Below are positions 52,012-53,595 of a stretch of 64,000 bases of DNA, in pieces. The translations under genes were made by a program, and so were the position numbers. Under the pieces are notes generated by a model that did no database searches, had not been told where the DNA came from, and saw only the letters and a list, made by a program, of their open reading frames with translations. Every line of letters begins with the position of its first letter. Within the stretch, counting starts at the first letter, position 1. This stretch comes from Hydrogenophilales bacterium. GTDB lineage: Bacteria; Pseudomonadota; Gammaproteobacteria; Burkholderiales; Thiobacillaceae. Location: contig JAHFRD010000013.1 in assembly GCA_023258975.1 (NCBI GenBank), forward strand, positions 1-64,000, read 5' to 3'.

Positions 52012-53088
52012 CTACTCCTCGTCGCTCGGCTGCGCCAGGCGGCGATTGCGCACGGCTTCGGCGAGTTCGCGCAGCACGGGCTCGGTGTCATCCCAGCTGA
52101 TGCAGGCGTCGGTGATGGACTGGCCGTAGGTCAGGGTCACGCCAGGTTTCAGATCCTGGCGGCCGGCGACCAGGTGGCTTTCGATCATCACGCCCATGAT
52201 GCGTTTGTCGCCGTTGCCGATCTGATTGGCGACATCGTGGCCCACTTCCGCCTGACGCTGATATTGCTTGCTGGAGTTGGCGTGCGAGAAGTCGATCATG
52301 ACCTGCTGCCGGAGGCCGGAGGAGGCCAGTTCGCCGCAGGCGGTGTTGACGCTCTCGGCATCGAAGTTGGGCTTCTTGCCGCCACGCAGAATGACGTGGC
52401 AATCCTCGTTGCCCTTGGTCTTGAACACCGCGACATGGCCCGATTTGGTGATCGAAACGAAGTGGTGGTGGGAGGCGGCGGCCTTGATCGCGTCCACGGC
52501 GATGCGCAGGTTGCCGTCGGTGCCGTTCTTGAAGCCCACCGGGCAGGACAAGCCGGAAGCCAGTTGCCGGTGCGATTGCGATTCCGTGGTGCGTGCGCCG
52601 ATGGCGCCCCAGGCGACCAGATCGGCGATGTACTGCGGCGAGATCAGGTCGAGGAATTCGGTGCCGCAGGGCAGGCCCATTTCGTTGATTTCCAGCAACA
52701 ACTTGCGCGCCAGGCGCAACCCTTCGTTGATGTCGAAACTCTCGTCCATGTGCGGGTCGTTGATCAGGCCTTTCCAGCCCACCGTGGTGCGCGGCTTCTC
52801 GAAATACACGCGCATGACCACCACCAGATCGCGCGCCAGTTCGTCCGCCAGCGGCTTCAACTTGCGCGCATATTCCAGCGCGGCGCCGGCATCGTGGATG
52901 GAACAGGGGCCGACCACTACCACCAGCCGGTCATCGGCGCCGCGCAGCACATCGTGAATCCGCGTGCGCGCCTGATAGGTGGCGCGCAAGGCGGCCTCGC
53001 TGGCCTTCAGCTCGCGCATGATCTGCATCGGCGCGAGCAGTTCGTCGCCCTGTTCGATGCGGGTGTCGTCGGTTCGGTATCCGGTCAT
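52012..53088 (-). CDS. 3-deoxy-7-phosphoheptulonate (DAHP) synthase, class I (AroF/G/H type)
   Basis: RLVVVVGPCSIHDAGAALEYARKL...MRVYFEKPRTTVGWKGLINDPHMD...GARTTESQSHRQLASGLSCPVGFKNGTDG...DFSHANSSK. ATG at 53088 has upstream AGGAG. Confidence 0.96.
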   Translation of the reverse strand: MTGYRTDDTRIEQGDELLAPMQIMRELKASEAALRATYQARTRIHDVLRGADDRLVVVVGPCSIHDAGAALEYARKLKPLADELARDLVVVMRVYFEKPRTTVGWKGLINDPHMDESFDINEGLRLARKLLLEINEMGLPCGTEFLDLISPQYIADLVAWGAIGARTTESQSHRQLASGLSCPVGFKNGTDGNLRIAVDAIKAAASHHHFVSITKSGHVAVFKTKGNEDCHVILRGGKKPNFDAESVNTACGELASSGLRQQVMIDFSHANSSKQYQRQAEVGHDVANQIGNGDKRIMGVMIESHLVAGRQDLKPGVTLTYGQSITDACISWDDTEPVLRELAEAVRNRRLAQPSDEE

Positions 53089-53114: not shown

Positions 53115-53146
53115 GAAACGAAAAAACCGCCAGGGCCTGGCGGTTT
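53115..53146 (-). terminator. Rho-independent attenuator terminator in DAHP synthase leader
   Basis: RNA AAACCGCCAGGCCCTGGCGGTTTTTTCG: 23-nt palindrome followed by U-run, 3' of a Phe-rich leader peptide. Confidence 0.88.
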
Positions 53147-53177
53147 CTCGGGTGGATTAAGCGGTTCTGCTCGCGCG

Positions 53178-53243
53178 TCAATCGATCCCGGCCGCCAGTG
53201 CGGTCGGAAACGTAAAGAAGAATTGCGCGCTAAGGGTGTTCAT
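53178..53243 (-). CDS. Phe-rich attenuation leader peptide MNTLSAQFFFTFPTALAAGID
   Basis: Codons TTC TTC TTT ACG TTT; followed by antiterminator-capable CTGGCGG (53192-53198) and the terminator at 53124-53146. Confidence 0.8.
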   Translation of the reverse strand: MNTLSAQFFFTFPTALAAGID

Positions 53244-53301
53244 GGCGCGCGATGCTAACAGAGCCGCCCCGCTGCCCACAACCCACGATTGGTGCAATGC
53301 A

Positions 53302-53595
53302 TCATCCGACCTTGGGCAAGTGGTGCAAGGCTTCGCCGATGGCCGCCGCCGAGTGTTCGAAGTCCTCCAGTTGCCCGGAGAAATACTTGTCATAGGACGG
53401 CATGGCAGGACTCCGGCGCCGGGATGATGCCCTCGGCGCGGACGAACATCACGCCGGCCTCGAAGGTGCCCAACATCTGTTCCAGGCAATGCGCGCGGAA
53501 CATGGGCGAGGGGTGAGGGGCGAGGGGCGATATAGGCGGTAGGCCTCGCGCACCGCGTCGGGAATGGAAATCCAGCGCTCCCTGGACACCCCGGT
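53302..53595 (-). pseudogene. Internally deleted TrpB2-like (tryptophan synthase beta-like) remnant
   Basis: N-terminal-like SRERWISIPDAVREAYRLYRPSPL joined to C-terminal-like HCLEQMLGTFEAGVMFVRAEGIIPAPESCHA and MPSYDKYFSGQLEDFEHSAAAIGEALHHLPKVG*. Confidence 0.75.

Follow-up and report, generated by a model that had tools for sequence, protein, structure and literature searches.

The window analysed here, i.e. the whole stretch of 64,000 nt, was found to encode on its minus strand a type I DAHP synthase, preceded by a promoter-like element, a short leader ORF rich in phenylalanine codons and an intrinsic terminator (Table 1). The assignment of the synthase is based on NCBIfam model NF006723 (578.6 bits compared with a cutoff of 568) and on TIGR00034, the match to which was also above cutoff. 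The credible start of this gene is the ATG at 53088, with an AGGAG motif at 53101-53097. As the earlier note had pointed out, the mechanical ORF list hides the leader by stretching the synthase to 53181. This extension starts from a TTG and runs over the terminator; a 143-codon ORF with a GTG start (53609-53178), which encloses the leader in frame, buries the leader as well.

A single DAHP synthase was detected in the 3.6-Mb genome, where one relative of the protein itself was identified, and no match to a type II DAHP synthase was obtained in this genome. A second PF00793 match sits between pyrG-like and eno-like frames and, judged from reading these neighbouring frames, reads as KdsA. Since the synthase of the window is the only one detected, an attenuator in front of it would act at the step that feeds all three aromatic branches.

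Table 1. Features of the DAHP synthase leader region in the window
Feature	Position	Strand	Basis
Promoter-like element: TTGTGG (53281-53276), 18-nt spacer, extended -10 TGT-TAGCAT (53260-53252)	53252..53281	minus	sequence and conservation
Leader peptide ORF MNTLSAQFFFTFPTALAAGID (ATG 53243-53241, TGA 53180-53178)	53178..53243	minus	read from the window sequence; aromatic-rich ORF conserved in relatives
Regulatory codons TTC TTC TTT ACG TTT (F F F T F)	53208..53222	minus	read from sequence
Segment 2, antiterminator 5' side: CTGGCGG (53198-53192) and CGGG (53190-53187)	53187..53198	minus	conservation and computed fold
Segment 3, antiterminator 3' side: CCCG (53152-53149) and CCGCCAG (53143-53137)	53137..53152	minus	sequence, conservation, fold
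Intrinsic terminator AAACCGCCAG-GCC-CTGGCGGTTT (53146-53124) and U-run (53126-53121)	53121..53146	minus	sequence; pairing and compensatory changes
Type I DAHP synthase (AroG/aroFGH family)	52012..53088	minus	NCBIfam NF006723, TIGR00034

The leader ORF had been described in the earlier note as carrying four Phe codons in five, and both its coordinates and its codons were reproduced: Phe is encoded by codons 8, 9 and 10 (53222-53214) and by codon 12 (53210-53208), and the peptide contains neither Tyr nor Trp. Following 3000 dinucleotide shuffles of the 300 nt upstream region, an ORF of 12-45 codons with at least four Phe in five codons was obtained in 5 of the 3000 shuffles, and in 20 of them when the criterion was at least four of F, Y or W. 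The palindrome and U-run were likewise located where they had been reported, and the hairpin at 53146-53124 was not listed by a simple terminator scan. Furthermore, the leader motif CTGGCGG was confirmed to be a copy of the terminator 3' arm and to be complementary to CCGCCAG, such that segment 3 holds the terminator 5' arm. Formation of the antiterminator, which involves the 3' portion of the leader ORF, excludes that of the terminator. The seven-pair CTGGCGG/CCGCCAG helix proposed previously was retained, whereas its extent was revised, as a second helix (CGGG/CCCG), of which 86% of cells are paired in 26 close leaders, lengthens the pairing. The 134-nt leader was shown to fold at z = -3.5.

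These features very probably constitute a classical (Yanofsky) ribosome-mediated transcription attenuator controlling the only DAHP synthase detected in the genome. The antitermination/termination reading had already been put forward in the earlier note and is supported by the comparative tests described below; we infer from sequence its function in the source organism, including transcription start, leader translation, ribosome stalling and regulatory response. RNA polymerase would start at, or a few bases from, the leader ATG, giving rise to a leaderless or nearly leaderless message. When Phe-tRNA is scarce, the ribosome would stall on Phe codons 8-10 and 12, leaving CTGGCGG/CGGG free to pair with CCCG/CCGCCAG as soon as the latter is made; with the antiterminator formed, no terminator would arise and the DAHP synthase gene would be transcribed. 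When Phe-tRNA is plentiful, the ribosome would reach the stop codon and cover CTGGCGG/CGGG, a segment which ends 6 nt before that stop, and the terminator would form.

Computed folds, for which the ribosome footprint was by convention set at 12 nt from the first A-site base, are in line with this scheme. With the ribosome at Phe12 and before segment 4 is made, the antiterminator was obtained at -26.0 kcal/mol, while a ribosome placed at the stop codon leaves the terminator as the sole possible structure (-18.2 kcal/mol over the stretch concerned). In the full-length RNA at equilibrium, the terminator is the preferred fold, also when the ribosome is at Phe12, and the antiterminator must therefore win kinetically, by forming first. 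Antitermination in classical attenuators is likewise kinetic.

Regarding the position of the promoter, which according to the earlier note would count against an attenuator if mapped downstream of 53178, a conserved promoter-like element is predicted from sequence upstream of the leader ORF. The leader ATG of the window lies 8 nt past the -10 box, without a Shine-Dalgarno sequence. Given a normal distance from the -10 box, transcription is predicted to begin at the ATG or no more than a few bases from it, and the window leader is probably leaderless, which would also explain the lack of an obvious Shine-Dalgarno sequence recorded in the earlier note. Close leaders exhibit the same arrangement of TTGT, a gap of ~18 nt and TCTGnTAGCAT (with a few variants), followed after 6-9 nt by the ATG; this last spacing was observed in nearly all 26 close leaders, being 13 nt in L005. 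In the order-wide set of 78 leaders, a TGn extended -10 box preceded the ATG by 6-10 nt in 39 cases, compared with 1.2% of random ATGs from the same loci. Conversely, SD-like motifs were associated with 6 of the 78 leader starts and with 9% of random ATGs, as opposed to 65 of 108 DAHP synthase starts. Several families in the order-wide set displayed no -10 box close to the leader ATG, suggesting that the leaderless layout is common across the order, not universal.

Relatives at 75-96% identity comprise, among others, Thiobacillus, Parasulfuritortus, Hydrogenophilus, Tepidiphilus and Hydrogenophilales or 'Gallionellaceae' genomes. In the 25 close relatives aligned with the window, a leader ORF, GGCGG core and terminator were present, and the aromatic codon run was nearly always present, loci L022, L024 and L094 being poor in such codons. 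The comparison across relatives that the earlier note had proposed revealed a conserved aromatic leader ORF, terminator and complementary segment, with covariation in the terminator in the order-wide set. Of 399 genomes from the order (Burkholderiales in GTDB, as judged from named relatives), 194 matched a covariance model built from the close leaders (R1; E <= 0.01); many of the weaker hits were confined to the terminator. A DAHP synthase gene lay directly downstream of all 29 best new R1 loci, and the same held for 58 of the 60 full-length matches that ranked next; no second regulated gene was found among these 29 and 60 matches. The two remaining matches (L169 and L170), which are without DAHP synthase and leader, look like ordinary terminators and were rejected as regulated loci. 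The genome from which the window derives holds one full-length model match.

With a second, broader covariance model (R2), the element was located before DAHP synthase in 89 of the 100 genomes sampled from the family to which the window belongs, among them 57 of the 59 of good quality; all 12 genera tallied were positive. With R2, the element was also observed before DAHP synthase in four genomes, outside the order, of two other families of the class. Within the order it recurs across many families. It was not found before the DAHP synthases of the related betaproteobacteria L028-L030 and Rhodocyclales L034-L039, whose upstream regions differ. Absence of the ORF or the hairpin, which the earlier note had named as evidence against an attenuator, is not general among orthologous leaders. 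In L006 (region 2720-2975; taken, on account of its matching contig position, to be G088, of the same genus), the promoter and terminator are kept and the leader ORF and segment 2 are lost; under the model, its DAHP synthase gene is predicted to be terminated constantly, unless otherwise relieved.

Two further loci were noted in the course of these searches. In Sheuella amnicola (L053:2740-2990), a DAHP synthase terminator of the same type is preceded by an ORF with few aromatic codons and a GGCGA-like core, possibly representing a diverged or lost sensor. A same-family genome carries, at G765:C15:14986-15057, a second match to the model that is partial and covers positions 55-131 (E 1.1e-5).

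The hairpin could alternatively represent the 3' terminator of an upstream trpB-like gene, with the Phe-rich ORF having arisen by chance, and the upstream gene or remnant is indeed trpB-like in the window and in about nine close relatives, mostly ending 60-100 nt before the leader. However, the leader, promoter and terminator are kept without a trpB-like gene upstream in most of 61 loci, and the aromatic ORF and complementary core recur in many families with frame and compensatory changes, leaving this explanation with hardly any probability compared with an attenuator. As to the upstream gene itself, three trpB-like remnants (query residues ~56-82, 366-392 and 422-454) are located at 53305-53592 on the minus strand of the window, where internal deletions have occurred; close relatives such as L005 carry an intact copy (454 aa) at the corresponding location. 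Another, distinct TrpB relative, with 35% identity, remains at G000:C22:220922-222058.

The compensatory changes in question were identified in an alignment of 81 sequences, in which 98% of cells in the terminator stem are paired. Double changes from A-U to G-C were observed at two terminator pairs, in 23 and 6 sequences, and a total of 31 cells were changed on both sides with pairing kept, a level reached in 0 of 500 shuffles. The GGYGG core was retained in 74 of the 78 leaders, in phase 2, 0 or 1 relative to the ATG (60, 9 and 5 leaders, respectively), and these frame shifts give rise to peptide ends as unlike as PLAVGR, VPGGRE and PRRDES. In the main frame, the codon ending in the first G of GGYGG specifies ten different amino acids. 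As GGYGG is kept in three frames, and with ten amino acids at one codon, selection on the core is, judging from these sequences, exerted at the RNA level. The base preceding GGYGG can pair with the base following CCGCC in 48 of 74 leaders, compared with 41.4 +/- 1.8 after shuffling (p ~0.001, with shared ancestry uncorrected). Antiterminator covariation alone is weak in close relatives because the core and stems barely vary, such that covariation in the 26 close leaders is uninformative and the order-wide set is needed.

Homologous leaders were shown to contain Phe, Tyr or Trp codons at the place equivalent to 53208..53222, and those of other families carry a mixture of the three. In the 78-leader set, for which leader starts were anchored on the covariance model match, these residues account for 30% of 1700 residues (F:Y:W = 335:140:37), as exemplified by mixed peptide segments such as FYFYFFWHL and YFFWFWYP. 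Codon usage is also distinctive: the TTT:TTC ratio is 212:123 in leaders, compared with 85:484 in their own DAHP synthase genes (odds ratio 9.8, p ~2e-50), and TAT is likewise raised over TAC. The TTT bias fits selection for slow codons, or simply U-rich unstructured RNA. Apart from the aromatic run and the residues dictated by the RNA core, conservation of the peptide is poor.

The enterobacterial pheL-pheA and pheST attenuators combine a run of Phe codons with mutually exclusive antiterminator and terminator structures, the position of the ribosome being the signal. The proposed attenuator of the window would share these three properties; it differs in that it is placed at the first common step, whereas pheL-pheA and pheST act on the Phe branch or on Phe-tRNA synthetase. 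Regulation of the E. coli DAHP synthase genes is instead exerted by TyrR/TrpR and GcvB (PMC11878033, PMC11802643). Phe-type control of DAHP synthase, regarded as less usual in the earlier note, was already reported, with experimental testing, for aroR-aroF of Corynebacterium glutamicum (Neshat et al. 2014, via PMC11802643 and PMC4046766). There too, an aromatic leader peptide precedes a DAHP synthase operon, and stalling under Phe limitation raises transcription. In contrast to the window, that system belongs to another phylum, carries three aromatic codons (Phe-Tyr-Phe) instead of four Phe in five, and has been tested by experiment; the likeness considered here is one of function only. Similarly, the uORFC-13-1 motif before Acholeplasma aroF is described as a predicted uORF with Phe codons and a terminator in front of a DAHP synthase gene; it differs from the element described here in phylum, in its 24 examples and in having a ribosome binding site (PMC8632094).

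The codon mixture across the order raises the question of which tRNAs are sensed. A general sensor of Phe, Tyr and Trp tRNA charging, of which the Phe-only leader of the window would represent one end of a range, would be consistent with the 335:140:37 composition and the mixed peptides, and with the fact that the only DAHP synthase detected feeds all three aromatic pathways. The window leader itself, however, carries Phe (four codons) as its sole aromatic residue, and the aroR leader of C. glutamicum has a Tyr codon between its two Phe codons, yet only Phe limitation is reported to have mattered there (PMC11802643). A general sensor is accordingly considered rather unlikely here, and a Phe-type attenuator is retained for the window. 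For the order as a whole, we give even chances to the proposal of an uncatalogued, order-wide attenuator family of the former betaproteobacteria, leaderless in many lineages, which couples the first aromatic step to Phe/Tyr/Trp tRNA charging, with a codon mix tuned by lineage and an RNA core that remains fixed through frame shifts.

A leaderless leader peptide, as is probable for the window, has a precedent in trpL-trpE(G) of Sinorhizobium meliloti, the transcript of which begins with the leader ATG and for which trans functions of rnTrpL/peTrpL have been reported (PMC7298713). That system differs from the present one in its Trp codons, its target (anthranilate synthase), its occurrence in alphaproteobacteria and these reported trans functions (PMC7298713). 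By analogy, the terminated leader RNA or its peptide might also act in trans, given the same layout of a leaderless leader ORF and a terminator, from which a short RNA of ~125 nt is predicted (precedent in PMC7298713). The poor conservation of the peptide outside the aromatic run and the core-imposed part argues against this, and such an additional role of the cis-acting attenuator is considered improbable. For ilvBNC of C. glutamicum, a title cited in PMC4046766 furthermore reports synthesis of a leader peptide in the absence of a ribosome binding site.

None of the Rfam amino-acid leader families matched at or above gathering score in the window or in the leaders of 20 relatives. RNAI antisense RNA (RF00106) gave a sub-threshold match (26.2 bits compared with a gathering score of 47) that is carried by the terminator hairpin, and was rejected. 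Within the full-text papers searched, no description of the attenuator in betaproteobacteria was found, and prior mention elsewhere is possible. On comparative grounds, the element is real and conserved; it is ordinary in principle and represents an uncatalogued and, as far as can be checked, new family within a known kind of attenuator.

As such, it would provide a large bacterial group with a specific and testable control at the start of aromatic synthesis, together with a naturally occurring collection of leader peptides that are probably leaderless. Leaders ranging from Phe-only to mixed Phe/Tyr/Trp, with the RNA core unchanged, offer a comparative series for studying how the sensing codons of attenuators are chosen. 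The leader ORF can be overlooked by gene finders, and the leader merits a place in RNA family libraries.

Finally, a dicodon composed of a rare Arg codon and a rare Phe codon (CGA-TTT) was observed in 15 of 26 close leaders, for example at L009:2838-2910. The Arg codon CGA accounts for 18 of 66 Arg codons in close leaders, compared with 4 of the 107 Arg codons of four window genes.
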